From a virus, in the IMG/VR virus record IMGVR_UViG_3300037549_000240, positions 1 through 26,375 of that record: a stretch of 26,375 nt of DNA; one strand, 5' to 3'. The notes below the pieces were generated by a model. The model did not search any database, was not told the origin of the DNA, and was given only the letters and a program-made list of their open reading frames with translations. Below are positions 2,736 to 26,314 of this stretch, in pieces (the stretch's first letter is position 1; each line of letters opens with the position of its first letter). A program made the position numbers and the translations under genes.

Positions 2736-3136
2736 AAAAGAGCATGAACAAATCATTTCAATTTGCGCGTAAAAATGCCGCTCCGGCGGTTCCGACGCCT
2801 TATGAGGTTCAAACCGCGCTTAAATGGCTTAAAGAAGGGCAAAGCGGGCAGATTAAAGAGGGAATCCCCAACCCTTCGACGGCCTTGGTGCTCTTGGCCG
2901 GTCGGAAGGCCGTCGCTTGGGTGGACGCCGAAGACTTCCCGCGCGTCTGTAACTACCGCTGGAAGCTGGTAAAAAGCAGCCGGTATTTTTACGCCCAGGC
3001 TGATTCCTGCGGCCAGACATTTTTCCTGCATCGCCTCGTCTTGCCGGTCGAAGGGAAGATTCATTTCCGAGACGGCAATTCGCTGAACTGCAAAAAAACG
3101 AATCTCGCAGTTAAAGAGGAGGTAATCCATGCCTGA
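2732..3136 (+). CDS. Degenerate HNH-endonuclease-like protein
   Basis: The 134-residue protein resembles phage HNH endonucleases of the AP2/HNH type. Residues 60-77 ('AVAWVDAEDFPRVCNYRW') match the usual 'a.vD.eDy..v..y.W' block. 'FFLHRLVL' (His100) matches the 'lHRli' motif. 'KIHFRDGNSLNCKKTNL' (109-125) lines up with 'eVdHidgngLDNRrsNL'. In that alignment the catalytic 'DH' pair is replaced by His111-Phe112 and the 'DN' by Asn119-Cys120, so nuclease activity is doubtful. It sits between terminase and portal, a classic site for intruding HNH genes. It starts in an ATGA overlap with terminase and its end overlaps the portal start, so it is fully embedded in the operon. Confidence 0.62.
   Translation: MKKSMNKSFQFARKNAAPAVPTPYEVQTALKWLKEGQSGQIKEGIPNPSTALVLLAGRKAVAWVDAEDFPRVCNYRWKLVKSSRYFYAQADSCGQTFFLHRLVLPVEGKIHFRDGNSLNCKKTNLAVKEEVIHA
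3116..3123 (+). promoter_or_regulatory. Strong Shine-Dalgarno for the portal gene
   Basis: GAGGAGGT lies 5 bases before ATG 3129 and inside the end of the preceding gene. Most genes in this operon have weak or no visible ribosome-binding sites, so this one stands out and fixes the portal start. Confidence 0.8.
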
Positions 3137-5468: not shown

Positions 5469-5632
5469 GCAAAAAAATTGTGGTGATTCAAAAATTAGAA
5501 AGCTGTGCGCGCTGTGGCGGAAATCATCGCCGCCTTGAATTCAGAAAACTCAAATTTCCATGTGGTGATTTAACCCACTGGTGTCCATGCCCGAAAAACA
5601 AGCAACCAATCCTTTTGAAACTCGTATCATGA
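5465..5632 (+). CDS. Small Cys-rich, probably zinc-binding protein
   Basis: This 55-residue open frame has a good GGAGGTG ribosome-binding site. It starts in an ATGA overlap with the portal stop and ends in an ATGA overlap with the likely protease start. It contains Cys at residues 14, 17, 33, 40 and 42, as 'CARCGGNH' followed by 'FPCGDLTHWCPCP'. The CxxC pair plus the later Cys/His residues fit a small zinc ribbon or knuckle. I do not recognise a family. Its position between portal-Mu F and protease suggests a head-assembly accessory or a small nucleic-acid-binding protein; that is inference. Confidence 0.68.
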   Translation: MSKKIVVIQKLESCARCGGNHRRLEFRKLKFPCGDLTHWCPCPKNKQPILLKLVS

Positions 5633-6339
5633 AAACACTTCTCGAACTCCAAAACGAATTTGGCAAACGCCTGGTAAAACTTCACACCGGCGCGGACGGT
5701 ATCCAATGCGGCCTGCACGTGAAAGCCAAACAATTGGACGGCGATCAGCCGATTGTTTCCTTTGTCGCCAGCGACGGCAGCGTTGACCGTTACAACGAAG
5801 TGATCCTGCCGACCGCGTGGGGCGACTTCAAAAACTTCAAGCGCAATCCGGTGATCACCGATTGCCACAACTATTCGAGCATCGGCTTCACGCTCGGCAA
5901 GGCCGTGCGCTACGCCGTCAACGCAGCCGGCCAGTTGGAAAACGACGTGCTGTTCGCGCTCTGCAATCCCCTGGGGAAAATCGCCTACGACATGGCGCGC
6001 CAGGGATTCTGCCCTACGCAATCGGTCGGCTTCATCCCGGAGGCGTGGACGAACGGCAACGCGCAAGGCCAGCCCGACCGCACTTACTCGAAGTGTGATC
6101 TGCTCGAAATCGCTTTGACCGTGGTGCCGGCAAACCAGAACGCGACGAACATCAAGAAAGCGTTCGAGGCCGGCGCGCTGGAGAAATCCGATCTGCGCGA
6201 ACTCGCGCAATGGCTCAAACAATTTTGCAGTGACGAAAACCCAGACCCGGCAGGCAAGGGAAGCGCATCCGCCGCCGGTGTCCATGATGCGCAGTTATTG
6301 CAGTTGGCGCGGACAGCAAAAAATCTGCTCGCAAATTAA
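5629..6339 (+). CDS. HK97-type prohead protease
   Basis: The 236-residue serine protease should process the capsid scaffold during head maturation. The catalytic His is probably His80 in 'NPVITDCHNYSSIGFTLGKA', corresponding to the family's 'vl..Hd....iGk' block. The nucleophile is Ser132 in 'CPTQSVGFIPEAW', matching 'lSvGf'. The block 'CDLLEIALTVVPANQNAT' matches 'LlEvSlvpvPAnp.A'. The frame is open further upstream (GTG 5581, ATG 5587), but ATG 5629 overlaps the preceding stop as ATGA like most starts here, and gives a normal N-terminus. The major capsid gene follows 27 bp later, the standard order. Confidence 0.9.
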   Translation: MKTLLELQNEFGKRLVKLHTGADGIQCGLHVKAKQLDGDQPIVSFVASDGSVDRYNEVILPTAWGDFKNFKRNPVITDCHNYSSIGFTLGKAVRYAVNAAGQLENDVLFALCNPLGKIAYDMARQGFCPTQSVGFIPEAWTNGNAQGQPDRTYSKCDLLEIALTVVPANQNATNIKKAFEAGALEKSDLRELAQWLKQFCSDENPDPAGKGSASAAGVHDAQLLQLARTAKNLLAN

Positions 6340-6366: not shown

Positions 6367-7809
6367 ATGAAAACGTTCTTAAAGAAATTCCGCCACACGA
6401 TCTCGCTGTTGGCGGTCGTCACGCTCGCCGTCTGCGCCGTGATGCTCGGCATGAATCCCGGCGCGACTTTTGTCTGCGTCTGTCTGTATCAACTCGCACA
6501 GCTCGCCATGAATAAACGCACGGCCATGTGTTACACCACGGCCTTGTCCGAACAGCAGATCAAAGAGTTCGGCGAAATCCTGGAATCGTTCAAAGGCTAT
6601 GGCGAGATGTTCAAGCAGTTGAAAGACCTCGGCTCCGTCGAAGGTGGGTTTGCGGCGATCAAGCTGCTGCCTCAACTGCTGAAGACGGCCACGCTGCGTG
6701 GCGATGAACTCGACGGCGAAGTCAAACGCCTGAAGAAACAACTGCTCTCGCGTTCCAATCTTGCCGCTGTTCGTCGCAACGGCCAGGTGAGCATCGAATG
6801 CGCGCAGTTCCTCGGTTCGGCGTTCGTCATCGGCAACGCCAAGTCCGGTCGGCTTGACCTGCTCGACGCCGGCCCGCGCGAGAAACTGTTCGCCGAAGCC
6901 AAATCGTTCCTCGGCATGGAAGCGAAAGCCGCCATCGGCACGGGAGACATTCCGCTGCCCGTCGAGTATTACGGCGAAGTCCGGGAACTGATCAGCGACT
7001 TCGGCGTCGCCCGCAAGAAGATGATGATCTTCCCGATTGGCCGTGGCACTGCCAAGCCGCCGCGCTTCAAAACGCGTCCGGCCTTCGGCAGCATCGCCAT
7101 GAGTGCGGCCTTCGCTGAAAAAAATCCGCAGATTGATTTTGCCTCGTTGGAATCGCACAAGGTCGGCGGCATCGTCCGTCTGCCGCGCGAGATTGACGAG
7201 CAGAGCATTGTGCCGATGGGCCAGTTCCTGGCGAAGTATGGCGCGGTGGAATTCGCCCGCGCCGAAGACACCTGGGCGTTCCTCGCCGATGGCAGCAATA
7301 CCTACGAGCAGGTCAAGGGCATCGTCCAGATCGCGCGTGACAAGGGCACCACGATTGTCCTGGACGCCGGCAAGACGAAGCCGAGCGACGCGACGCTCAC
7401 GGACTTCCGCAACCTGCGCACGAAAGTGAACAAGGCGGCGTTGAGCGCGACGCGCTCGGCGTATTATCTGGACACCACGTGGGAAACCACGCTGCGCAAG
7501 TTCAACACGAAGGACGATCTCTACGTCTATGTGCGCCAGCCGGACGGCAGCGCCACGCTGGATGGTTATCCGATCATCTGGACGGACGTATTGACGCCTT
7601 ACGGCCAGGTGGCCACGCCGGACAGCCCGCTCGCCGTCTTCGGCGCGCTGGATTACTGGTGGATGGGCGAGCGCAATGCGCCTCGCATGGACTTCTCCTC
7701 GGACGTGTTCTTCGCGACCGACGAACTCGCCACGCGCTTCCTCGAAGAATACGACTTCGATTATCAGCAGGGCGATGTCACCTCCGCGTTGCTCACCGCC
7801 GCGCAATAA
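6367..7809 (+). CDS. HK97-fold major capsid protein with a hydrophobic N-terminal extension
   Basis: The protein is 480 residues. Residues about 60-150 form the helical scaffold (delta) region normally removed by the prohead protease; the HK97 fold follows. Recognisable blocks are 'GGIVRLPREIDEQSIVPMGQ', 'AVEFARAEDTWAFLADGSNT', 'TDFRNLRTKVNKAALSATRS', 'LDGYPIIWTDVL' and 'AVFGALDYWWMGERNAPRMD'. Unusually, the first 48 residues carry basic residues followed by two hydrophobic stretches ('ISLLAVVTLAVCAVMLGM' and 'ATFVCVCLYQLAQLAM'). The start at 6367 is supported by AAAGGA 10 bases upstream. An internal ATG at 6508 would remove the hydrophobic part but has no visible ribosome-binding site. Confidence 0.9.
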   Translation: MKTFLKKFRHTISLLAVVTLAVCAVMLGMNPGATFVCVCLYQLAQLAMNKRTAMCYTTALSEQQIKEFGEILESFKGYGEMFKQLKDLGSVEGGFAAIKLLPQLLKTATLRGDELDGEVKRLKKQLLSRSNLAAVRRNGQVSIECAQFLGSAFVIGNAKSGRLDLLDAGPREKLFAEAKSFLGMEAKAAIGTGDIPLPVEYYGEVRELISDFGVARKKMMIFPIGRGTAKPPRFKTRPAFGSIAMSAAFAEKNPQIDFASLESHKVGGIVRLPREIDEQSIVPMGQFLAKYGAVEFARAEDTWAFLADGSNTYEQVKGIVQIARDKGTTIVLDAGKTKPSDATLTDFRNLRTKVNKAALSATRSAYYLDTTWETTLRKFNTKDDLYVYVRQPDGSATLDGYPIIWTDVLTPYGQVATPDSPLAVFGALDYWWMGERNAPRMDFSSDVFFATDELATRFLEEYDFDYQQGDVTSALLTAAQ

Positions 7810-8655: not shown

Positions 8656-9293
8656 ACGCTGGCTTTTCCAATTTCGCCACGCTGAAGAAACATCTGCTCG
8701 GCGGATCGTCGGCGAAGAATGAAACGCGCTTCGATCTCACGATCAAGATGATCGGCCTCGGCATGGCGTCGGCTATCGAGAACTTTTGCGGCAGCCGGAA
8801 ATTTTTCCGCGCCGAGGATGCGAAGGAAATTTATCCCGCCGACCGCTGCCAATGGATCGTTGCGCGCTACCCGGTGGAAAGCGTCGCCAGCGTGGAGATC
8901 AAAGTGAACGAAACCGAAGGCTTCGTTTTGCAGACGCCCTCGCCGATTGTCACCGTGGACACCGTCGCCGGCATCATCAATTTTTCCGGCAGCGCCGACG
9001 CGGGCGCGCCGACCTCGCAAGTCCGTTTCACGCTCACCGGCGGTTATTGGTGGGAAACGCTCGAACCGGATGACGACGAATATCCTTCGACGATGCCTGA
9101 AGGCGCGAATCCGCTGCCGGAGGATTTGAAGCTCGCCTGGCTCATGCAATGCGAAGTGATCTGGAGCAAGAGCGACAAGCTCGGCACCGGCCTCGTGGAC
9201 GATCCTGAAGCGCAGTCGAAAGTTTCCACGCTCGAACTCTCGCCCCTGGTGAAACAGATGCTCGGACAGTTCGTCCGCTACAACCTCGTATGA
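8652..9293 (+). CDS. Head-tail connector / adaptor protein, gp6-like
   Basis: The 213-residue protein has the pattern of the HK97 gp6/DUF3199-type adaptor that docks under the portal. A helical N-terminus ('LTIKMIGLGMASAIENFCGS') leads into 'FFRAEDAKEIYPADRCQWIV'. A beta insertion follows ('YPVESVASVEIKVNETEGFV', 'TVDTVAGIINFSGSADAG', 'RFTLTGGYWW'), then C-terminal helices ('LPEDLKLAWLMQCEVIW') and a short tail. The 'YPV.sv.sv' plus 'G.i.f......l.vty.GGY' pattern is typical of this family. The start is GTG 8652, coupled to the mini-gene before it. The stop overlaps the next ATG. Confidence 0.8.
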   Translation: MNAGFSNFATLKKHLLGGSSAKNETRFDLTIKMIGLGMASAIENFCGSRKFFRAEDAKEIYPADRCQWIVARYPVESVASVEIKVNETEGFVLQTPSPIVTVDTVAGIINFSGSADAGAPTSQVRFTLTGGYWWETLEPDDDEYPSTMPEGANPLPEDLKLAWLMQCEVIWSKSDKLGTGLVDDPEAQSKVSTLELSPLVKQMLGQFVRYNLV

Positions 9294-9880
9294 GCGAAGC
9301 GTTCAAATTCAAGATTGATCTGACGCCGGAGGCAAAGCGCATTGTCGCCAATCTCCAGACGCTGCCGCCAAAGGTGGTGCAGTCAATCGCGCGGGCGATG
9401 GATTTGTCCAACCAACTCGCCATCGCAAAAATTCAAACGGATCACTTGACCGGGCGCGGGCCGTATCCGGTAGATCAACACAAGCTCGGCGTCGTCACGA
9501 GCCGGCTGCGCGGCTCGGTGCGCGCCAGCGCGGCCACGATCCACGGCGAGACTGTCGAGACGGCCATTGGCTCTAACGTTGTCTATGCGGCGATTCACGA
9601 ATTCGGCGGTCGCGTCCATCACGAGGCCCGCACGGTGAAAGTCCGGCTACGCACGGATGCGAAAGGAAATCTTTTGCGGCAGTTGAGCAATTCCCACCTC
9701 GCCATTTTTGCCAGTCGCACGCACAAGCGCGCGAAGGAAGTCACGAGCAAGGCGGAAGCCTACGACGTGGACATGCCGGAACGCGCGCCGTTCCGCACCG
9801 GCATCGAGGAGTCCCTGCACCATTACAAACGCTTTGTGTCCGCCGGCATCGTCGCCGCGTGGAACGATCTGAAGAACTGA
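9290..9880 (+). CDS. Neck/tail-completion protein, Mu gpG / HK97 gp10-like
   Basis: This 196-residue protein has the block 'VETAIGSNVVYAAIHEFGGR', characteristic of the phage virion morphogenesis (gpG) and HK97 gp10 families. The late motif 'MPERAPFRTGIEESLHHY' corresponds to 'ipaRPFLr.al'. An N-terminal helix-rich segment contains 'VVQSIARAMDLSNQLAIAKI' and the 'TGRGPYPVDQHKLGVVTSRL' region corresponds to 'tG....LtGrLrnS'. These proteins sit at the head-tail junction and help finish or join the tail. The gene overlaps the connector gene by ATGA and is followed 1 bp later by the next start. Confidence 0.8.
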   Translation: MSEAFKFKIDLTPEAKRIVANLQTLPPKVVQSIARAMDLSNQLAIAKIQTDHLTGRGPYPVDQHKLGVVTSRLRGSVRASAATIHGETVETAIGSNVVYAAIHEFGGRVHHEARTVKVRLRTDAKGNLLRQLSNSHLAIFASRTHKRAKEVTSKAEAYDVDMPERAPFRTGIEESLHHYKRFVSAGIVAAWNDLKN

Positions 9881-13789: not shown

Positions 13790-15394
13790 ATGGCAGACGA
13801 AAACGGCCAAGAGTTAAAAATCCACATCGTCAGCGATGCGGATAATTCCGGCTTCAAATCCGCCGCAACCGCGTCGAACGAACTCGGCGCAGAGAATAGC
13901 AAAACTGCTTCGACGACGGATGAGCTGTCGAAGAAACAAGAGGAAGGCGCGGAACACGCTAATATCCTTCACAAGAATCACCGGCTCGTCCACGACATCC
14001 TGCACCTGATCGCGCACGAGAGCGGCCCGGCAGCCGGCGCGGCCTTCGCTGCCATCGGTGCCGCTGCCGGCGGCGGCTTGATGCTGGCCGTGTTTGCGGT
14101 GAAGGAACTCCTGAACTGGTTCCACGAGCTTCACGAGAAGGCGAAAGAATTTCGCGAGCTGATGGAAAGCCAGATTGATCTCACGCCGATGGTCAAGGAG
14201 ATTGGCGAAGTCGCCACGGCCACGGAAACCGCCAAGCAAAAGACGAAGGAGTTTTTTGAGGAGCTGGAGCGCAAGTCCAAGGAGACGGACGGCTGGAAGA
14301 AAATCGCCGACGCACAGATCGAACAGTTGAAGCGCGTGGCGGACGAGCAAAAGAAAGTCGCCGATGCCGACGCCGACCGCGACAAGGCCAAGCTTGAATA
14401 CCTGAAGGCGACGAAACAAATCACCGCCGAGCAATATGCGCAAGGCATGGCAGCGGTCGAGGCCATGAAGCAAAATAAAAAGGACGATGCGGACGCTGGT
14501 CTGTCCGAGAAATCCATCGCCGTGCTGGTCAATGCGCTCAACAATATTGACCTGCAAAAGCATCTCACCGCGCCGCAAGTCCAAGGTGCAAACCAGAAGG
14601 CCGAGGAGGCAAAGAAAGCGGTTGAATCTCTCAAAGCAACGATTGAGACCAACCGTAAACTGATGGAAGCACACTTGGAAAAAATCACCGGCGGCAAAGA
14701 TGGCAAGGGACTTCAGGGGGCGCTGGGTGATGTGACCGGCTTCATGGACAATCTGTTTGGCGAGTCAAAGGTGATGGAAGTTGCCGGCATGTCGGACGAG
14801 GATCGCAAGAAAGAATGGGAGGCAGACCAGAACCGCAGCTTCACCAAACACTCGCCGGATTTTTGGGACAAGGTCAAACGGGCGCGTGAAATCATGGACA
14901 AGATCGGTGAGGAGCGTTCCGCCGAAGCCGGCAACGCCGGAACAATCCGCAGCCTTCGCGCCAAATTACCGGGCGCTGAATCCACCGCCAGCACTTCGGA
15001 AAATGATGTCAAGGCGCTCGAACAAAAACTTAACCAGTTGGAGGCTGATCAAAAAGCCATCAAAGAGGAACTGGAAAAACGCCAGGGCGAAGATTCGGCC
15101 CGCGCCGGTGCAGCGGGCGACATCGCCGGCGCAAAAACCGTCGAGGGTGCGTTCAAATCGGCAACGGTGCCGACGCCGGGCGGTGCCAACCATCATTTGA
15201 CGGCGTTCGCCCAGGCGCAACATCAGTTGGAAGAAAACCAGAAGGTCGGGCGTGAACTTGCCACCGCCGCGCAGCAGGCCGCGCGTGAACATAACTCCTC
15301 GCTCGGTTCCATCCTGAAGTCGCTGCAAGAAATTCGCGCGCAAAACATCTCGCTCCAGCAACAGATCAATTCGATGCCGCACACCGTCAAATGA
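13790..15394 (+). CDS. Tape-measure protein candidate
   Basis: The 534-residue protein is mostly long charged helix, with a single hydrophobic segment at about residues 79-105 ('PAAGAAFAAIGAAAGGGLML'), the usual make-up of a tape-measure protein that lines the tail tube and sets its length. Heptad-rich stretches include 'AQIEQLKRVADEQKKVADAD' and 'KALEQKLNQLEADQKAIKEE'. At about 0.15 nm per residue, 534 residues would correspond to a tail near 80 nm, which is short for a siphovirus. No peptidase or lysozyme domain is visible. It starts 2 bp after the preceding stop and ends in an ATGA overlap with the tail-tip gene. An alternative role as a scaffold-like coiled-coil cannot be excluded. Confidence 0.75.
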   Translation: MADENGQELKIHIVSDADNSGFKSAATASNELGAENSKTASTTDELSKKQEEGAEHANILHKNHRLVHDILHLIAHESGPAAGAAFAAIGAAAGGGLMLAVFAVKELLNWFHELHEKAKEFRELMESQIDLTPMVKEIGEVATATETAKQKTKEFFEELERKSKETDGWKKIADAQIEQLKRVADEQKKVADADADRDKAKLEYLKATKQITAEQYAQGMAAVEAMKQNKKDDADAGLSEKSIAVLVNALNNIDLQKHLTAPQVQGANQKAEEAKKAVESLKATIETNRKLMEAHLEKITGGKDGKGLQGALGDVTGFMDNLFGESKVMEVAGMSDEDRKKEWEADQNRSFTKHSPDFWDKVKRAREIMDKIGEERSAEAGNAGTIRSLRAKLPGAESTASTSENDVKALEQKLNQLEADQKAIKEELEKRQGEDSARAGAAGDIAGAKTVEGAFKSATVPTPGGANHHLTAFAQAQHQLEENQKVGRELATAAQQAAREHNSSLGSILKSLQEIRAQNISLQQQINSMPHTVK

Positions 15395-17523
15395 CTTACG
15401 AGACGCTTCAGTATGTGGACGGTGCGGGCGCGACACAGGAGGTCGCGGTGCAGCGCCTTTCTTCGCCCGGCGCGGTGAGTCTCAAACTCATTCCCCGTTC
15501 GCACGCGCCGGGCGAGTTTCACATTTCATTGCCGCAACCGCCAGAGGTCGCGCTGACGATCCCTTTCAAGAGCCGGTGCGTCGTTTGGGCCTGTCGCACA
15601 TCGGCGAGTGGCGCGAACAATTCCTTCAGCGGCGGAACGAAGATTTTTCAGGGCCGGCGCACGGACAATTCCGGCGAGGCGAGCCGCAGCCGTGTGAACA
15701 CGAACATCGTGCTGTCGGACGCGCTGTGGGATTTGCAGAAGATCACCTATCAAATCACCTGGCAGTTGATCACCGGCGGCACTTTGACGAGTCCGACCTA
15801 TTCGACGTTCTATTTTCCCGACGTGATTTTGTTCCAGGCCGCGCCAGCCACGACGTATTCGCCAGCAGCCGTCAACGGCACCATCACGACATGGCAGCAA
15901 ATCCAGGCCATCATTGATTACGCGAAAAATTATGCGACCGGCGACAACGCGGTGCAGTTGCAGCTCGCCGGCAGCGGCACCCTGACTGCCGGCGTTTGGT
16001 CGGCTGGCACCGGCGCGGAGTTCACGCCCTGCTACGTCAACTGGTATCCGATCCGCTCCATGAAATGCCTGGCGGCGCTCACGTTCTGTATGCGTCCGCA
16101 TCCCGGTGTCTTCACGGAGATTGATTACACCACGACGCCGCCGACGCTGCACTTCCGCGACCGCGCGCACATGACGGCGCTCACGCTGCCTTACAAATCC
16201 ACCGATGCCAACGGCATCACGCACGTCGCGACAAACATCCAGCCATTGAACGAACTCGTGCCGGATCGTGTGGCCATCTTTTACAAGATCAATGGCACGT
16301 TCAAAGGCCAGCCGGTCGTGAGCTATGGCAGCGACATTTATCCAGTCGGGGCCGGGCCTAGTTTGTTGAGCCAGGAATTCTCGGTGGACGTGACAGGAGC
16401 CGCGCGCCAGGAAACGATTTACAATTTCCGCAGTTCGGCCTTCGATCCGACCGACCTGGATTTGTGGCGGCTGAAGGTGCCGGCACTGAAGCAAATGGCC
16501 GATGGCGGGCAAGTCGCCAACGACGGAGATCCGGGCGCGCTCGCCTTCGTGGACAGTGCCGTGAACGGCGGCACCGGACATCCGAAGTGCATCACGGTTG
16601 AAGATGAGAACGGCGACGCCATTGATCTCTCGACGTATCAATACATCACCGACGATGATGTGTTCGCCTGGATGAAGTTGTCCGGCGGCGGTTCGGCCTC
16701 CGTGGTGAAGGCCACGGTGAAAGCGTTCTTCACCTACAATAAGATCACGACGATCTCGGCTGAAGAGTTCACGGATTCGTTCAAGGAACACGTCCATCAC
16801 TTCCGAGTCACGCTCACCAACGCGCCGACCGATGAATATATTTTGAAGCAAGTGCTCAACACGGGCGAATCCATCCCGTCGAATCTGGCGCAACGCATCT
16901 ACACCGAGCTTCAGGACTTGCAATGGAAACTTCAGCATCAGGTCTGGCAGATTGGCGCGGATGGCAGCACGGTGCCGACGCTGGTGAAGCCAGGCAAACA
17001 TAAAATCAATTTGCTCGGCGGTTTGTCGGATTGGGAAACGATGAATGCGGTGCCGGAAAATATCTCCATCGAATTTCTCCGCACCGGCGATGGCCGTCTC
17101 TACGCCGCGCACACGATCAACTGCGGCCCGGTCAACCATCTTGAGCCTGGCTACCTGATCCAGCTTTGGAGTCTGTTCACGAATCGTGACCTCGCGCGCA
17201 TTGATGCGCAGCAACGCTTGAACGGTCGCACGGCCAGCTCGCAGGTGGATTTGTCCAACACCTCGGCCCGCGAGAATTCCACCGCTGCCGAGTCGGTGCC
17301 GATCACCACGAATCACGTTTACATCGCTGCCGGCGTTCTCGCCGGCCAGGTCGTGAACGATGCGAAGAAAATCGCCGACATCCTCGCCGCGACGACGCCG
17401 ACCACGGTGGACACCGATCATCCGCCAAAAAAAATGGAGCCGAAAGAGACGGCGATGTATGACCAGAACTGCAACCTGGTCTATTGCATCCTTCAGCGCG
17501 GCGGCGCTTACACCAAACCGTAA
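15391..17523 (+). CDS. Tail-tip / baseplate hub-like protein
   Basis: This 710-residue protein directly follows the tape measure, the usual place of distal-tail and tail-tip proteins. Its first part is beta-rich ('IPFKSRCVVWACRTSASG', 'GGTKIFQGRRTDNSGEASRS', 'ALWDLQKITYQITWQ'), reminiscent of the hub barrel of gp27/gpD-type proteins in which 'iF.Gr..d' is followed by a helix. A middle region reads 'TTPPTLHFRDRAHMTALTLP' and 'VPDRVAIFYKING'. The C-terminal third includes 'LRTGDGRLYAAHTINCGPVN'. The ORF ends TAA overlapping the next ATG (TAATG). I see no catalytic peptidoglycan-hydrolase motif. The hub role is inferred from position and fold pattern. Confidence 0.6.
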   Translation: MTYETLQYVDGAGATQEVAVQRLSSPGAVSLKLIPRSHAPGEFHISLPQPPEVALTIPFKSRCVVWACRTSASGANNSFSGGTKIFQGRRTDNSGEASRSRVNTNIVLSDALWDLQKITYQITWQLITGGTLTSPTYSTFYFPDVILFQAAPATTYSPAAVNGTITTWQQIQAIIDYAKNYATGDNAVQLQLAGSGTLTAGVWSAGTGAEFTPCYVNWYPIRSMKCLAALTFCMRPHPGVFTEIDYTTTPPTLHFRDRAHMTALTLPYKSTDANGITHVATNIQPLNELVPDRVAIFYKINGTFKGQPVVSYGSDIYPVGAGPSLLSQEFSVDVTGAARQETIYNFRSSAFDPTDLDLWRLKVPALKQMADGGQVANDGDPGALAFVDSAVNGGTGHPKCITVEDENGDAIDLSTYQYITDDDVFAWMKLSGGGSASVVKATVKAFFTYNKITTISAEEFTDSFKEHVHHFRVTLTNAPTDEYILKQVLNTGESIPSNLAQRIYTELQDLQWKLQHQVWQIGADGSTVPTLVKPGKHKINLLGGLSDWETMNAVPENISIEFLRTGDGRLYAAHTINCGPVNHLEPGYLIQLWSLFTNRDLARIDAQQRLNGRTASSQVDLSNTSARENSTAAESVPITTNHVYIAAGVLAGQVVNDAKKIADILAATTPTTVDTDHPPKKMEPKETAMYDQNCNLVYCILQRGGAYTKP

Positions 17524-20500
17524 TGGAAACCAAAGTCGGCATTCCGTATCGCGCGCCGTGCGGCGGTTGGATCAACCCGCCGCTGATTCACTTCGCACCG
17601 CTTTACCGGCACGTCCATCCTTCCGACTTCGGCATTGACCGCTATGTGAATGTGACGGTCGTGCCGAATTACGATGCCGGCACTGGCGGCAATATCGCGG
17701 CCTACGAACGTTACGCGGTGGACGCGTCGGGGCCGTCTTCGTGCGAGGCACATTACGACTGCGGCACCGGCCCGATTCCCTGTGGTGGTTGGATCGGCGT
17801 GGACGCAAACCTTCCGACGTTTCAATACTCGCTCGTCGTCGGCCAGGTGAACGAAGCACCGCAATCATTCAATCACGATGGCACGGTGAACTTCGCCGTC
17901 TGCTACAAGAGCGGTTTTAAGAACGTGGCCGCTCGGCGGCAGTGGCACGGAATGTTTGGTTTCCTTGATGCCGATGGACGCGGGTGCAATGACACAACGC
18001 TGACTTGCGATGATGATTCCACCATCACATACCGCAGTTACCAGGCCGCGCCTTCGCAGACTAAATACTTGAACCTTTCGTGGGATTGCAAGGCGGTGAT
18101 GTATGACAATAACGAAGAAGGGATGGCACAAAATTTGAGCTTGGTGACTGAAACGCTCAAAGGCAATTGCTCGGTCAATCCAACGAGTGGAGAAATCACA
18201 GTCAGCGGCATCGTCACGACATGCGAACGGCCACTTTACCAGAATAACGACAGCGGCGGCGCAGACTATGTTTGCACGGGCCATCCGACGATCCGGGCAA
18301 GCACCTATGCGAACATCGCCGCGATGATTGCCTGCGGGTTCGACATCCCGGCGTTCTATCAAGAGTTTTTGGACTTTCAGGCTGGCACTGGTGTCGGCGT
18401 GACTTGCACGCGAAGCATCACGAACACGAAGCACGAAATTCATTTCTATTGGGATTATACGCCGCCGGGAAGTTCGACGAGCTATCGCATCCAGTCGTTT
18501 GAATGCACGGTGGAATTGGGCGGTGCAAATCCGGCAAGCGACATTTACGCAGACCTGAAGGGATTGCTCGGATATTTCCCGCTGAATGATGACCACCTGT
18601 ATCCGTGGCGCACCGACGGATTCCTTCAAGTCGCTCCGCTCATCACGCGCAACGAGAAAGGCTCGACTGCGCCGATGACAGTTTTTACTCCCACGGTGGA
18701 CGACATGCGTTCGCCGATTACGGACACAAACAACAACGCGCCGTTCACAACGCCGGAAACCCCGCCGCCGTTTGGATGGACATATAGTCCGACGAACAAT
18801 GGCGTAGCCATCAATGACGCAAACGGCCATGCCCCACACAGCAAGGCCGGCGATTGCACTGGCGGAACAATTGTCCCTGGGTCTGGTGGGGCGCAAGATG
18901 TAGATTGGATTCCGACTTACGACACGACTCCGGTCGCATGGTCTGCAACCTACGATCAGATGGACTGGTTTGATTCGTCAGTTTGGTATTGGCGCTGGCC
19001 GGCTGGTTACGACTCGTCAAACCACGCGGCTAGTTCGCTTGTGCAGATGATTGACGGCGCGGTGCAGGGAGCGCCGAAGCCGGCTGGCTACCAGAATTAT
19101 TTCCGGTTCGATTTCGTTGACTGGCACGCGTGCTGTTACGACGATGGTCTCGGTGTGCATCAGATGGATTGGTATGAATATGGTTACGGTATGTGGCTTG
19201 ATACCTACATCGCGGCCTCTGGCGCGCAGTTGCCGCGCAATGCAACGCAGTGGACGAACAACTATGCGGTGATCAATAAACCGCCGGGCGCGTCGCTGAT
19301 GTATGCCGACCCGACGAATCCGTTTCACGGCGGCTGTCCTTACGAAGGCATCGCCGGCGACGGTGGTGGATTGTGGGGTTACAAATACGCGGAGATCGGC
19401 GAGCGTTGGAATTCGGAGAATTTCGGCCAGCCCGCCGGCAAGATGCGTTTCGATTATGACGAGACCCAAGTTTACGGAATTGCTTCGCTCGCCGGCAGCG
19501 GCACCGGCGCGACGTTCACGAGCCAGGACTATCAGGGCAACGACGTGACGATTCCGAGCAGCGCCGGCGTTTGGGGCGGTTCTGCGGTCGGCGGTTTCTA
19601 CAACATCAGCGTGAGCGGTTCGCTCGTGACGCTCGGCACGAAGGTTTATGATCTCCCGACCGGATGGACATCGAAGAGCGGTGATGACGCGACGTGCTTT
19701 GGAAAATTGCGCTGGCCGTCTGCACCGGGAATCATGGGCCGCGCTGAAGCGACTGCCGACGTGCCGCCGGCCTACGCGGCTGGCACGACCTATTCCAAGT
19801 TTCAGCCGGTGATCAGCGCCGGCATCAGTTACTACTCGCTGCAAGATGCGAACACTGGCCACACGCCGGCAGCGAGTCCGACATGGTGGGCCGCTGGTTC
19901 GGTGATTCTGCTCGACTCGAAGTATTGCGTGGACGGCGACAAGGTGAATCTCTACACGCTGACAATGGGCGCGGTCGCGACGAACGTCGCAATGACTAAA
20001 GTGTTCGACACGGCCATCGCCGTCGCCCTCGACTACTCCGTGATCCCGGACGTGAAATGGGTGACGCCCTACAAGCTCAACGACGGCACGACGGACGGCG
20101 GCAAATACTATTTTGCGGACGATTATCCGAAGGGAGATTTTGTCACATTGCAATGGTTGTTTGATCGTCGCACGAACGGCGAGAACGGGCGGCTCACTGG
20201 AGTCCTGGATTGCAGCGGCGCACAAGTCACGGTGCCGGCGACGAATAACGGCTTCGCATCTTTCAGCCAGACGCCGGCATGTTTACCCTTCACGCCCTGT
20301 TGCCCGGCGGTCGTGTGTTTCTCGCCCAATGGTGAGACGTGGCCGAACGGCGTGACTTACGATTTTCCTGACACGTTTGAACTCGACGAAAGATACGGCT
20401 CACGCTGGCAGGGTCATGTTCAAATCACGATGACGGATTTGTTCTGGCAGACGCCGCACATTCCGACCGGAATTTTGGCGCCGGATTCACCCGATACGAT

Positions 20501-20882
20501 CCGGTGGACGATGGACGACGGCAACTGCAACGAGGACACCGAAGAGATGACTGAAGGCGGCGCGACCATCTTCATCAAATACTATCCGCACGCGCCGCAA
20601 GTCGAGGCGCGGACTTCGCTGCCGGGCAATTACGGCCCGGCACAGAATGAGACCGCGCCGGCCTTGCCGAGTGGCGTCACAATCGGATGGTTGTCGCCTG
20701 TGGATCACACCGGCGACGGCGTCGCTTATCCGCCGGGTGAGATTGGTTTTCTGGACTCCGGTTTGCCTGCCGGCATTGATACGCCCTGGGCGCTTCGTTT
20801 GCGGCTCTGCCTGGCCATAGCGGACGCGAGCGAATGCCGCTTCAAAGACGACTACAAACAGCAGGTCAACGGCTGCCAATGA
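17523..20882 (+). CDS. Large Cys-rich tail fibre / receptor-binding candidate with CBM5/12-like module
   Basis: At 1119 residues this is the largest phage protein here. It has about 29 Cys and many Trp and Tyr, which is unusual for a cytoplasmically assembled protein. A carbohydrate-binding-like module at about residues 745-790 reads 'PAYAAGTTYSKFQPVISAGI' followed by 'SYYSLQDANTGHTPAASPTW', matching the CBM5/12 pattern 'Y..G..V...g..Y......n.g..P..sp.W'. The motif CGGWI occurs twice near the N-terminus (about residues 13 and 88). 'CCPAVVCF' lies near the C-terminal third. Together with its position as the penultimate tail gene this suggests a central fibre or receptor-binding protein for a sugar-rich surface. 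ATG 17523 overlaps the previous stop; the frame upstream is a shadow. Confidence 0.7.
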   Translation: METKVGIPYRAPCGGWINPPLIHFAPLYRHVHPSDFGIDRYVNVTVVPNYDAGTGGNIAAYERYAVDASGPSSCEAHYDCGTGPIPCGGWIGVDANLPTFQYSLVVGQVNEAPQSFNHDGTVNFAVCYKSGFKNVAARRQWHGMFGFLDADGRGCNDTTLTCDDDSTITYRSYQAAPSQTKYLNLSWDCKAVMYDNNEEGMAQNLSLVTETLKGNCSVNPTSGEITVSGIVTTCERPLYQNNDSGGADYVCTGHPTIRASTYANIAAMIACGFDIPAFYQEFLDFQAGTGVGVTCTRSITNTKHEIHFYWDYTPPGSSTSYRIQSFECTVELGGANPASDIYADLKGLLGYFPLNDDHLYPWRTDGFLQVAPLITRNEKGSTAPMTVFTPTVDDMRSPITDTNNNAPFTTPETPPPFGWTYSPTNNGVAINDANGHAPHSKAGDCTGGTIVPGSGGAQDVDWIPTYDTTPVAWSATYDQMDWFDSSVWYWRWPAGYDSSNHAASSLVQMIDGAVQGAPKPAGYQNYFRFDFVDWHACCYDDGLGVHQMDWYEYGYGMWLDTYIAASGAQLPRNATQWTNNYAVINKPPGASLMYADPTNPFHGGCPYEGIAGDGGGLWGYKYAEIGERWNSENFGQPAGKMRFDYDETQVYGIASLAGSGTGATFTSQDYQGNDVTIPSSAGVWGGSAVGGFYNISVSGSLVTLGTKVYDLPTGWTSKSGDDATCFGKLRWPSAPGIMGRAEATADVPPAYAAGTTYSKFQPVISAGISYYSLQDANTGHTPAASPTWWAAGSVILLDSKYCVDGDKVNLYTLTMGAVATNVAMTKVFDTAIAVALDYSVIPDVKWVTPYKLNDGTTDGGKYYFADDYPKGDFVTLQWLFDRRTNGENGRLTGVLDCSGAQVTVPATNNGFASFSQTPACLPFTPCCPAVVCFSPNGETWPNGVTYDFPDTFELDERYGSRWQGHVQITMTDLFWQTPHIPTGILAPDSPDTIRWTMDDGNCNEDTEEMTEGGATIFIKYYPHAPQVEARTSLPGNYGPAQNETAPALPSGVTIGWLSPVDHTGDGVAYPPGEIGFLDSGLPAGIDTPWALRLRLCLAIADASECRFKDDYKQQVNGCQ

Positions 20883-21272: not shown

Positions 21273-21305
21273 CTTGTGAAACCATTTCAATGGCTTGTGA
21301 AACCA
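21273..21305 (-). repeat. Two 12-bp direct repeats at the phage right end, putative transposase sites
   Basis: CTTGTGAAACCA occurs at 21273-21284 and again at 21294-21305, exactly 21 bp apart (two helical turns). Read inward from the phage end it is TGGTTTCACAAG. The GTTTCAC core is shared with the MuA binding consensus, which from memory begins YGTTTCAY. Tandem 21-22 bp spacing at the right end is also how Mu arranges R1 and R2. Confidence 0.75.
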
Positions 21306-21312
21306 GCCGCGC

Positions 21313-21324
21313 TTTTACAGTGGC
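21313..21324 (-). other. Right terminus of the prophage and likely 5-bp target duplication
   Basis: The phage appears to end at 21319: the sequence read inward begins TGTAAAAG, with the 5'-TG typical of Mu-family ends. The next five bases, GTGGC at 21320-21324, are the expected target duplication and fit the Mu target preference N-Y-(G/C)-R-N. The second copy would lie at the left end, outside the window. The exact base is inferred from the break in the host reading frame plus the TG rule. Confidence 0.65.
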
Positions 21325-21549
21325 GTTGGCCGAGGTGCCGATGGCGCCAAACACCGCCGTGTCCCCCGGGCCGGGATTGCCGGTGGCGGGAGTCCAGTCG
21401 GCGTTCACATTCCAATAGTTCGCGCCGGGCGTGGCGACATTCCACAAGTAGGTTGCGGCCCGGCTTGATTGCGCCGCGCCAGCCAGAGTCAAGGCGACGA
21501 TGACGAGTAAGTTTGCCAGCGGATTGGATTGATGCGAAGTGGTTCTCAT
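21320..21549 (-). pseudogene. Host gene for a secreted beta-repeat protein, interrupted by the prophage
   Basis: The minus-strand frame from ATG 21549 encodes a signal peptide ('NPLANLLVIVALTLAGAAQS', cleavage probably after SRA). The mature start follows: 'TYLWNVATPGANYWNVNADW', then 'TPATGNPGPGDTAVFGAIGT' and 'SANATV'. This is the first repeat of autotransporter-type (PATR-like) exoproteins common in Verrucomicrobiota. After about 77 residues the frame runs into the phage terminus and ends at 21214 with 35 unrelated residues. Full-length relatives are normally many hundreds of residues, so the rest should lie beyond the phage's left end. The same motif pattern (W-N...GAN.W...W.P...D...F..A) occurs inside the neighbouring 1533-residue protein. 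Confidence 0.75.
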
Positions 21550-21712: not shown

Positions 21713-24700
21713 TCACTCCATTTGAATCCGAAAAAATTGCTGGAGCGAAGTGGCCTTGACGCCATTGGTGAATTGGAAACCACCGGTGCCATCAAACCGA
21801 TTGGTCGCCGTCACTGCCCAAACGGCCGGCGGTGACAGGTTCGTCGTGGTCTGGACGAAATACGGCCAGCCCGGCACGCCGTTGCTGCCGGAGAAAATCA
21901 AATTTGTGCCGTTCAACTTGACCGCGCCGAACAGCGGCGGCGTCGCGGGCTGCGAAACAAAAACCAAGTCCACTGAAGTGTTCGCGACATTGTTGGAGAG
22001 ATACGCGCTGAAGCCGCCGCCGGAAACGGGCGTGGCCAGAATGAAATTGAAGCCCGCGCCGCCGATGGCGCCGGCATAGTCAATCAGCGGAATCTGGGTC
22101 GGCGTGGAAACGGCCGGCAACGAAATGACGCTGATGAGATTTGAACTGCCGCCGGTCACGAGGCTGGTGGCAACCAGATTGTTCGCGGTCACATCCGCAG
22201 AAAATTGGAGCGACGCGTTGGTCAGCGCCACCTTGCCAACCGGCGCGCCGGGAGCACCGACGGAACCGGTCACGCCCAGCACGCCGCCGTTCACCGTAAT
22301 GGTCGAGGTGCCGCCGCCCGCAAGAATATCGCCGTCGCCCGCGACCGTGCCGCCGCTGATGTTGAGCGTGGCGACCGGCAGCGTGCCGCCGCCGGTGTAA
22401 TGCGCCAGCCGCAGCATTGAATTCACCAGCAGCGTCGCCGTGCCGTTCACATTCACCGTGCCGGTGACCACACCGGCGGCAGTGGTTGCGTTTTGATAAC
22501 CGGCTTCCAGCGTGTTCACGTCGAACGTGCCGGATTTCAAAGTCAAAGTTCCGGTGGCCGTGCCGCTGCCGCTGCCGGTCTGGCCTTTGCCGACGAACAC
22601 CGTGTCCGCCAGCGCGTCCACCATGCCGCCGCTGAAATCTGCCGTTCCGACCGTCGTGCTGCCGCTGGCGCTTTGCACGGAAAAATCACCGATGTTGAAC
22701 TGCGATACGCGATCCGGGCCAAAGCCGCGCAGGACAAGCTGCGGCGCGGATTCCGTGAACGCGGGATTGAACGCCAGCGTCGCCGTGCATTTCTGCCCGC
22801 CAACGGTGATGGTGTCCGCGTAAATTGCATTGGCGAGGCCCAGATAAATCTGGCTCGCGCTGCCGCCGTTGGAATAACAGTCGCCCTCGTCAATGCCCGG
22901 CGTGCCCGCAGCGAAAAGATTATTCGTCCGCGCCAAATACACGGTGCCGACCGGTCGGTTCACTGATCCAAACACACCCACCAACATCTGATTCACGTCT
23001 GCCAAAAAATTTCCCAAGCCGGACAAATCCAGCGTCGCGCGCTGCGAACCGCCGTTGGTGCTGCCCTGGCGCACAATCAAATCCGCGCTTTCATTGACCA
23101 GGTTCAGCGAGCCATTCAAGCCGGTGACTGTCGCAAAAACCGTTTGCGCGCTGCCGTTGTCCGTTTCCGTGCCGACGGTGATACCGTTTGCGCCGGACAA
23201 ATTCAGCGACTGGCCGTCGGCGATGCGGATCGTGTGGTTGCCGTTGGTGTTGCCGATTTGCAGCGACGCGAGGTTGCCGCCGAAATTCGCGTCCACGACG
23301 CTGTTCACATTGGAAACCGCCACGCCGGCCGCACCGGCGTCGAAAAATTTTACGTCATCCAAAAACTCCGGCGACTCCTTGGGCAACCAGTTGTTGGTCG
23401 TTGACCAGTTGTTCGCGCCCGCGCCAGGACCGTTCCACACAATCTTCGCCGCCGCATGGCTCGAAACCGTGAGCGTGAAATTGTCGCTGGCCGTGAGGCC
23501 GCTCGAATCGGTCACGGTCACGGTGATGATGGCGACGCCGGTTTGATTTGCCAGCGGCGTGATGGTGACAGTCCGGCTCGTGCCGCTGCCGCCGAATACG
23601 ATGTTTGCATTCGGCACAAGGCTCGGATTTGAAGAAGCACCGCTGACTGTGAGCGTAACAATTGAAGCGCCGCCAATCGTGAATGGAATCGGCCCGGTCG
23701 TCGTGTTCGGCGCAATCGTCAAATTGCCGAGGCTGGAAATGGTCGGTCCCGCACCGAGCAGCGACAGCACGAGCTGCGGCTGAATGGCTGCGTTCGCGTT
23801 TTCGCCCGAAGCGTAGCTGACGCTGTTCGTGCCGATGGAAAACAATTCCAGAGAAAGCTGCCGGTCATTTTGCAGCGCGTCCAAAACCTGTGGCGTCACG
23901 TCAAAGGAAACCGTTCCGTTGGTTGACGGAATCCACGTCGCGAACCGCTCGCCGCCGCCGGGCTGGTTGTTCCAAGTGACGCCGGTTTCCGTCCAGGTGT
24001 TTGCATTTGCGACGGCGACACCTTGTTCAATGCCATTCGCGCCAACACTGATCGGAGTAAGCGTGACGCGCGCCTGCGAAATTTTTCCCGACACGCCGCT
24101 CAAGTCCCACCGCAGATAAGCCTGCTGCTGGTTGTTGGTGGAAGAACTTTGCTGCACGATCAGATTGGTCGCGGTGCCGAAATTGTTTGCCGCATTGGTG
24201 CCGCCGCGCACGGTGGCGTCGGCCACGGGCGTGAGCGAAGTTGTCGTGGCGGCGACGTTCGGCGCGACTTGTAATTCGAGCATTGCCCAGTCAATGCCGA
24301 GGTCGCCTTGCGCCGCGACATTCAACTGGCCGTTGGTGAGCAGCGTGAGCTGGTTCGCCAAATCCAGAACGCGAACGGTCGTGTTGGTGCCGGTGCCAAC
24401 TGGCAACCAGCCAAGATTCGAAAACGTAAAACTGTTCGTGGTGCTGCCGAGATAGAGCACGTCGCCGCTGGCGGAATTGGTCGCGCGCATCGCCAGCGAA
24501 AAGGTGGCCGCGACCACGTGTTCGTTCGCGGCGAGCGTGAAGTTGAAGGTGAACGGAATCCAGTGATTGTTCGTCACCACGTCGAAAGCATCGAGCGACT
24601 GGCCCGACGCAACGGATTTCACGGCGTTGCTCCAAGTCGTGTCCAAAAAGATTTTTTCGCCGCCGGGAACATTGTTGCTGAAGGCGTCAATATCGCCGAG

Positions 24701-26314
24701 CCAGTAGTCGCGCGTCTGCAAATTCGGCGCGGCGAGCCGGTCTTGCAACTGTGAAAAATAAAGGCTGTCGGGAAAAACATTCGTCGCGGTGGAGCCGGAA
24801 GAATCATAATTTCCCGCTGCGTGCGGCATATTGGTGTAGCCGATGTTCCAAGCCGTGCCGGTTTGAATCGGGCCGACGGAACCGATGAGCCAGTTGTTCG
24901 CGCCCGGCGGATTTTGGACGATGAAGCCGCTCGCGGCGTTGTTCCAAATGACGCAGTTCGCGCCTTCCCAGCCGTGGCCGGTGCCGTAGTTGCCGGCGTT
25001 TTGAATGTCGTTGTTGCCGCCGTGAATGATGATGTTGTCCCATAAAATTCCCGTAGCCCAGCGCTGGTGCGGGCCGGCCTCGGCGTGCGCGTTGTCGCTG
25101 GTGCCGTCCACAAAAACATTCGGGCCGATGGTGAGCGATTGCGTGACAAACTGGTGCCGGTCCTGGCGCGTGTAGCAATTTTTCACGAGGCAATACTGCA
25201 CGTCATTCATCGCGAAGGCATAGCGCCGGCCGCCGGTGATGATGGAAATGGGATCGAGTGCTTGACAATTTTGCACCGTGATAAACTTGTCGCCGCTGTT
25301 CAGGTTGACGCACGAATAGCCGAAATACTGCGAGTTCACATCACGCGCCCAGCCGTTCACCGTGTTGTCGAATTGCACGAACGTCCAGCCGTGATTCTCG
25401 TTGGTGACATTCCCGAAATAATCCGACTTCGCAAAAATGTGCTCGATGCCCACGTTCGAGATGCGTCCGCCCCAGGTGAACGGACGGATGGTGCCGTTGG
25501 TATAATGCCGCGCGTCAATCGCACAGGTGATCGGCGCGTCCACAAAAATGTGATTGCCCTCGATGTGCGTGATGATGCGGTCCAGGTCCATGTTGTAGCC
25601 GCTCGCCGTCCACGGCACATCGGGGGCCGGGCCGAGCAAATCCATGCCGAGATCGTGAATCCAGTTCGTCGTGGCGACGCGGCGGACATAAACTTCCGTG
25701 CCGACGGACAAGCCGCTGGTGTTGTCCACAAAAAAACTGCGCGCCCCGGCGGGAATGTAAAGATTTGTGATGGTGTGCGTCGTGCCGCTCGACGCGGAGC
25801 CGGAGCCGGAAATTTCGACGAGCGTGTATTGGTTGCTGGCCGTGGCTTCAAGGACGGTGCCGCTGCCGTTGGTGTAGCTGCCGACGCCGCGCAGCACCAC
25901 GCCGCTCGCCTTGATGCTGATTGTGTTGGAACACGGATACAAACCGGCGCTCAACAAGACCGCACCACGAAAACCATTGGTGTCGAGCGGCAGCGCGGAA
26001 ACGTAATTGATGGCAGACTGGATGTTCGTCGTGTTGTCACCGGCCATCGGCGAAACAATAATTTTCACCGGCACCGTGTTGGAAGATGGCAACGGCGCGA
26101 GTCCGCCTTGGTAGCCGACGCCGGATTCGTCCAGGATGCGGTTGCCCAGCGCATCCGGCTGCGAAATAAGTCTGCCGCTGGCACCGGGAAAAACCCAGAC
26201 ACTCATATTGGTGGCCGAGGAAGCCGACAGGCCGAAGGCCGTGAACACCGCCACGACCCAAAGCCAATGGCTCATTGGGAATCGCAGATGTCGGGGCATT
26301 GGATAGCAATACAA
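21713..26314 (-). CDS. Large secreted multidomain beta-helix exoprotein
   Basis: The 1533-residue host protein starts with a signal peptide (hydrophobic 'WLWVVAVFTAFGLSASSA', cleavage near residue 34). Residues about 75-550 look like a right-handed beta-helix of the pectate-lyase superfamily: 'NIQSAINYVSALPLDTNGFR', 'NHGWTFVQFDNTVNGWARDV', 'DRHQFVTQSLTIGPNVFVDG', 'WDNIIIHGGNNDIQNAGNYG'. Residues about 690-852 match a CBM96/DNRLRE domain ('PVADATVRGGTNAANNFGTA', 'AYLRWDLSGV', 'TWTETGVTWNNQP'). About 857-951 is Ig-like, 957-1450 autotransporter-type beta repeats ('LNISGGTV'), and 1458-1533 a Verrucomicrobiota-type C-terminal domain ending 'QQFFRIQME'. The start is uncertain: TTG 26314 has AAGGTG 6 bases upstream; ATG 26299 and ATG 26275 are alternatives. 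Polysaccharide degradation or binding outside the cell is likely; substrate unknown. Confidence 0.85.
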   Translation of the reverse strand: MYCYPMPRHLRFPMSHWLWVVAVFTAFGLSASSATNMSVWVFPGASGRLISQPDALGNRILDESGVGYQGGLAPLPSSNTVPVKIIVSPMAGDNTTNIQSAINYVSALPLDTNGFRGAVLLSAGLYPCSNTISIKASGVVLRGVGSYTNGSGTVLEATASNQYTLVEISGSGSASSGTTHTITNLYIPAGARSFFVDNTSGLSVGTEVYVRRVATTNWIHDLGMDLLGPAPDVPWTASGYNMDLDRIITHIEGNHIFVDAPITCAIDARHYTNGTIRPFTWGGRISNVGIEHIFAKSDYFGNVTNENHGWTFVQFDNTVNGWARDVNSQYFGYSCVNLNSGDKFITVQNCQALDPISIITGGRRYAFAMNDVQYCLVKNCYTRQDRHQFVTQSLTIGPNVFVDGTSDNAHAEAGPHQRWATGILWDNIIIHGGNNDIQNAGNYGTGHGWEGANCVIWNNAASGFIVQNPPGANNWLIGSVGPIQTGTAWNIGYTNMPHAAGNYDSSGSTATNVFPDSLYFSQLQDRLAAPNLQTRDYWLGDIDAFSNNVPGGEKIFLDTTWSNAVKSVASGQSLDAFDVVTNNHWIPFTFNFTLAANEHVVAATFSLAMRATNSASGDVLYLGSTTNSFTFSNLGWLPVGTGTNTTVRVLDLANQLTLLTNGQLNVAAQGDLGIDWAMLELQVAPNVAATTTSLTPVADATVRGGTNAANNFGTATNLIVQQSSSTNNQQQAYLRWDLSGVSGKISQARVTLTPISVGANGIEQGVAVANANTWTETGVTWNNQPGGGERFATWIPSTNGTVSFDVTPQVLDALQNDRQLSLELFSIGTNSVSYASGENANAAIQPQLVLSLLGAGPTISSLGNLTIAPNTTTGPIPFTIGGASIVTLTVSGASSNPSLVPNANIVFGGSGTSRTVTITPLANQTGVAIITVTVTDSSGLTASDNFTLTVSSHAAAKIVWNGPGAGANNWSTTNNWLPKESPEFLDDVKFFDAGAAGVAVSNVNSVVDANFGGNLASLQIGNTNGNHTIRIADGQSLNLSGANGITVGTETDNGSAQTVFATVTGLNGSLNLVNESADLIVRQGSTNGGSQRATLDLSGLGNFLADVNQMLVGVFGSVNRPVGTVYLARTNNLFAAGTPGIDEGDCYSNGGSASQIYLGLANAIYADTITVGGQKCTATLAFNPAFTESAPQLVLRGFGPDRVSQFNIGDFSVQSASGSTTVGTADFSGGMVDALADTVFVGKGQTGSGSGTATGTLTLKSGTFDVNTLEAGYQNATTAAGVVTGTVNVNGTATLLVNSMLRLAHYTGGGTLPVATLNISGGTVAGDGDILAGGGTSTITVNGGVLGVTGSVGAPGAPVGKVALTNASLQFSADVTANNLVATSLVTGGSSNLISVISLPAVSTPTQIPLIDYAGAIGGAGFNFILATPVSGGGFSAYLSNNVANTSVDLVFVSQPATPPLFGAVKLNGTNLIFSGSNGVPGWPYFVQTTTNLSPPAVWAVTATNRFDGTGGFQFTNGVKATSLQQFFRIQME

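Follow-up and report, generated by a model that had tools for sequence, protein, structure and literature searches.

A transposable prophage's right end within a gene of a likely Verrucomicrobiota host

Introduction

The 26,375 nucleotides of IMG/VR virus record IMGVR_UViG_3300037549_000240, referred to here as the window, pass from phage structural genes into bacterial DNA, and the boundary raises the question of how the phage came to lie there. An earlier note, made from the letters alone, had proposed that a Mu-type transposable phage ends at this point in a Verrucomicrobiota host. Our analysis upholds that proposal: with a probability of about 0.95, positions 21273–21319 form the right end, on the tail-gene side, of a transposable prophage lying inside a gene of an uncultured Verrucomicrobiota bacterium, as indicated by the MuA, MuB and Gam homologues of related phages, the geometry of their ends, their varied flanks and target duplications, and the match of the host gene. 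The record starts mid-phage and holds neither a transposase nor the left end, so that the proof of transposable type is drawn from relatives; since the left arm of the window phage is missing, its membership is argued from its end, from the host junction and from these relatives.

The right terminus

Direct reading of the window sequence places the switch from phage to host between 21319 and 21320, with 21319 the last phage base. Read inward, the terminus (21319 to 21306, minus strand, 14 nt) is TGTAAAAGCGCGGC; it opens with 5'-TG and adjoins R1, a 12-bp transposase-site candidate (21294–21305, minus strand), with a second candidate, R2 (21273–21284, minus strand), lying 21 bp further inside. 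R1 and R2 are identical, each reading TGGTTTCACAAG, and their start-to-start step of 21 bp recurs in other right ends; the spacer between them (21285–21293, minus strand) is CCATTGAAA, of which the TTGAAA part is conserved in relatives. The paired sites and the adjacent 5'-TG terminus had both been described before, and both are confirmed at base resolution. The proposal that GTTTCAC forms the conserved core of the sites has to be given up: the family consensus across relatives is YGGTTTSASAAG, and for that reason the sites resemble those of Mu only slightly.

Taken alone, the sites and GTTTCAC are weak evidence. GTTTCAC occurs seven times in the window against 5.1 expected, which is no enrichment, and a close exact 12-mer repeat arises in 19 of 100 dinucleotide shuffles. 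The window's own composite of TG, spacing and two GGTTTCACAAG sites appeared in none of 100 shuffles, and a broader composite (TG-TAAAA, the 14-nt spacing, both sites and the intervening TTGAAA) has a single occurrence in the window, at the 21273–21319 end itself. It is because this composite, which also fits other phages, is found there and nowhere else in the window that the sites carry significance. The pattern TGTAAAA-N7-YGGTTYSASAAG-N3-TTGAAA-WGGTTTSASAAR matches the window and four other phages or metagenome-assembled genomes (MAGs) exactly, each beside different host DNA, and the window is therefore assigned to the right-end type of these relatives; the TGTAAAA plus 7-nt segment of the terminus is also present in G017, G265, G273, G255, G270 and L101.

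Pattern searches of IMG/VR added little. The exact double TGGTTTCACAAG pattern had no match there, and a relaxed double-site pattern found seven stretches, two of which (G017 and G029) belong to the phage family of the window and five of which look, from their context, like chance matches. Right-end pattern matches that have no second site (L095, L096, L098, L099 and L100) were likewise set aside as probably fortuitous, and 14 more IMG/VR records yielded no further right ends.

The interrupted host gene

On the host side, a minus-strand open reading frame (ORF) begins at 21549, runs for 76 codons and then enters phage sequence, the host portion (21320–21549, minus strand, 76 whole codons) being the 5' part of an interrupted gene with a secreted-protein-like N terminus. 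It had been suggested that a host frame loses its family pattern at this point; the broken frame is plain, while the family pattern comes down to a weak match of the ORF's W..GAN.W....W pattern to the neighbouring host protein (BLASTP E 0.002). That neighbour is an intact gene (21713–26314, minus strand) encoding 1533 amino acids with a CBM96/DNRLRE domain, and its best match, at 66% identity over residues 8–1532, is a protein of Verrucomicrobia MAG JAJPKI010000178.1, which makes Verrucomicrobiota the most likely host phylum on sequence grounds. An uninterrupted copy of the host gene, which the earlier note had hoped to see in related genomes, was not found; it is absent beside the homologous neighbour in L065.

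Structural genes and related phages

The phage part of the window encodes, all on the plus strand, a terminase large subunit (1236–2735; Pfam PF03237 and PHROGs, 74% to G009 and 67% to G029), a portal fused to a Mu-F-like head morphogenesis domain (3129–5468; PF04860 at 1.9e-37, PF04233 at 9.8e-12), a Peptidase_S78 prohead protease (5626–6339), an HK97-type major capsid protein (6367–7809; PF05065 at 9.1e-21) and a probable Phage_tail_S or neck protein (9290–9880; a domain match just under the cut-off, and a match to PHROG 26). Three long ORFs at 13790–20882 are probable tail genes, judged by position and gene-order comparison. The right-most of them (17523–20882, 1120 aa) found no relative in any search, and its position suggests a tail tip or receptor-binding protein. 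Between terminase and portal, a plus-strand ORF at 2732–3136 has an HNH-like look (LHRLV...H.DGN.LNC), with no counterpart in the compared relatives and no family match. The Mu-type head genes that would mark a Muvirus are absent from this module, its capsid being HK97-type (PF05065) and its protease a Peptidase_S78.

The portal protein finds 25 IMG/VR contigs at 43–65% identity that share gene order over most structural genes; its profile had no match in GTDB r220 genomes. A MuA-type transposase gene is present in all 12 relatives with 8.5 kb or more of sequence upstream of the portal gene, usually adjoined by a MuB-type ATPase. In MuA/MuB searches of 23 records, 9 had phrog_310 and 11 had phrog_296, and other searches added the MuA-type gene of G003, G008 and G011. 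A profile of 25 transposases matches the solved structures of MuA (4fcy, E 6e-7) and of the MuA end-binding domain (2ezk), with an hhalign value of 96% against Mu MuA, and the best match of the predicted transposase model is the Mu transposase core (1bcm, VIA-align Z 19.9). The one transposase searched by tblastn among 50,697 phage records, that of G002, had no match.

In G017, a Mu-Gam-like protein (scoring under Pfam's own cut-off) lies near MuB, and the left arm comprising Gam, MuB, MuA and a large early gene adjoining MuA runs toward the left end, while the structural genes, together with a small HTH-like gene, are directed rightward. This two-armed plan is typical of B3 and of the Leptospira prophages and is not that of Mu (PMC8705779). 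Genome sizes of the relatives (34,922 b in G265, 37,687 b in G253 and 36 kb, or 36,050 b, in G017) fall within the range of about 35–39 kb seen in such phages.

Several other features of the relatives were recorded. The early region of several encodes a pentapeptide-repeat protein (PF00805; L072:2165-2749, minus strand, and also the left arms of G002, G016, G018 and G019), whose genes are built of 15-bp DNA repeat runs that vary in length from phage to phage. Proteins of the pentapeptide kind are able to act on gyrase, an enzyme that Mu needs. An IS21-type istA/istB pair lies at the tail-gene end of the G003 contig (L015:178-2623, minus strand). A second transposase clade (G002, G009 and G013) has other terminal sequences, with CGGGACA-type repeats (L040 and L041 in G009; L042 and L043 in G013).

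Ends of the relatives and target duplication

The ends of the relatives follow one plan. The right end of G017 reads TGTAAAAAAGCGTC CGGTTTCAGAAG with its second site 21 bp further, and its left end TGATTGAAAGAGGG AGGTTCCAGAAG with the second site 74 bp further. Left ends in general have TG and the same 14-nt spacing, the second site being 73–86 bp away. The rule of TG, 12 nt and a 12-bp site holds in G019, G029 (left), G253, G270, G355, G260, G273, G255 and others, and TG ends with subterminal sites occur at both ends of G017, G253, G265 and G355; the right end of G029 reads GG or GT. Flanking DNA differs at every right end compared, including that of the window, as expected for near-random insertion at many sites.

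Three prophages have both flanks available, in contigs that are continuous or that overlap, and each shows an exact 4-bp target duplication (G253, GTTT; G265, TTGC; G029, AAGA), the G253 case consisting of two contigs that overlap by 141 b. A length of 4 bp fits all three, and 5 bp would fit two of them if the right end were one base shorter; reading-frame continuity in the three does not discriminate between lengths. Four other end pairs (G017, G355, G270 C225 and G270 C246/C255) show no duplication, and they are poor tests, since three have at least one flank of 3–31 bases at a contig end and the fourth pairs ends from two contigs of a genome that has several copies. According to published values, Mu duplicates 5 bp and B3 duplicates 6 bp (PMC8705779). 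On these comparisons the duplication is probably 4 bp long rather than the 5 bp of Mu, and the repeat expected from the host bases adjoining the window end (21320–21324, GTGGC) is therefore GTGG rather than GTGGC. The fit of GTGGC to the 5-bp Mu target rule, earlier taken as support, proved uninformative: N-Y-S-R-N holds, read by eye, in about 5 of 13 right flanks against 1 in 8 expected, and the rule was accordingly given little weight and dropped as evidence.

The transposase active site

Four acidic residues (Asp281, Asp282, Glu360 and Glu414 in G017 numbering) are invariant in 25 aligned transposases, including those of L069 and L071. The structural model has an RNase H fold in which Asp281 and Asp282 lie on strand 1, Glu360 ends strand 4 and Glu414 lies on the following long helix, the places at which D, D and E would be looked for; Glu360 falls within a (V/I)E.GTATL motif. 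From its position in the model, Glu360 would stand in for the second catalytic Asp of MuA. In the Leptospira study, D, D and E were the only residues conserved in all TnpA compared (PMC8705779). The reading of these phages as a Verrucomicrobiota-associated lineage whose transposase is Asp-Glu-Glu rather than Asp-Asp-Glu and makes 4-bp duplications is one that we favour, if by a modest degree. If confirmed, the 4-bp duplication and the active-site Glu would show more latitude among MuA-type transposases in features that are regarded as constant.

Origin of the boundary

Many temperate phages that have HK97 heads and MuF portals integrate by means of an integrase, and the boundary might accordingly be the attR of a tyrosine or serine recombinase, the 12-bp sites being its arm or core sites. 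In G009 a long direct repeat with the hairpin AAAACGGGA..TCCCGTTTT lies close to both ends, and the G270 C225 prophage has an integron-integrase-like ORF close to its left end (L088:1761-2768, minus strand), which counts against the transposable reading. Set against these are the lack of any tRNA in the window, the MuA gene in every one of the 12 relatives with enough upstream sequence, the lack of an integrase among the ten left-arm genes of G017, and flanks that differ at every end together with 4-bp duplications; integration by such a recombinase is accordingly very improbable. Still less probable is that the boundary is an assembly chimera, in which phage and host contigs were joined. The record itself comes from a metagenome assembly, and the flanks of several relatives are assembly consensus, but the junction lies at precisely the base where the rule of TG, 14 nt, R1 and R2 at 21 bp puts it, and a random chimera is disfavoured because this rule holds in independent contigs and MAGs.

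The end could also belong to a decayed prophage that no longer transposes, a variant compatible with the transposable reading. Activity is not readable from sequence, and the left arm lies outside the record; on the other side, R1 and R2 agree without a mismatch and the reading frames of the structural genes are open, and we consider a dead remnant unlikely, though clearly less so than the two preceding alternatives. The window prophage may be active.

The boundary is best read as the right end of a B3-like, two-armed transposable prophage of a Verrucomicrobiota lineage, one that departs from the usual kind in its probable 4-bp duplications and in the invariant Glu at the expected second catalytic Asp. 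The window phage itself presumably carries a MuA-type transposase, with the 12-bp sites as its putative binding sites. Encoded in the missing left arm, this transposase would bind R1 and R2 at the right end, as well as L1 and L2 at the opposite one, pair the ends and cut after the terminal CA; the cut ends would be joined to staggered cuts in an essentially unselected target, and a short target sequence, probably 4 bp and here GTGG, would be copied.

Occurrence and comparison with known systems

Such transposases (E at most 1e-10) occur in 12 of 320 genomes from the host's order, and the right-end motif with at most one mismatch occurs in 9, some of which may be chance. A PMC search, whose limited coverage is no proof of absence, found no paper on Mu-like or transposable phages with Verrucomicrobiota. 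These findings place transposable phages, their ends resolved to the base, in a phylum of soil and water that is widespread and has hardly been cultured, and defined ends with a matching transposase are the requirements for a mini-Mu-like insertion tool in Verrucomicrobiota.

KS10 is likewise transposable, having two putative sites at each end and its early region inverted, but its ends are not of the TG-CA kind and no direct repeat has been found in it (PMC2628397). Escherichia phage Mu (NC_000929) shares the MuA fold and end-binding domain, MuB, a Gam-like protein, 5'-TG ends, and right-end sites paired about one site apart with left sites further apart. It differs in that the early genes of the relatives run toward the left end rather than away from it, the 12-bp sites are of another sequence when the Mu ends are compared, the capsid is HK97-type and Mu duplicates 5 bp. 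B3 and the Leptospira transposable prophages have in common with the family a DDE transposase with an ATPase partner, TG-CA ends, a length of about 35–39 kb, and left and right arms transcribed oppositely around a regulator (PMC8705779). They duplicate 6 bp (PMC8705779), whereas the phage family of the window probably duplicates 4 bp and is set apart from them by its HK97-type capsid and portal-MuF fusion.
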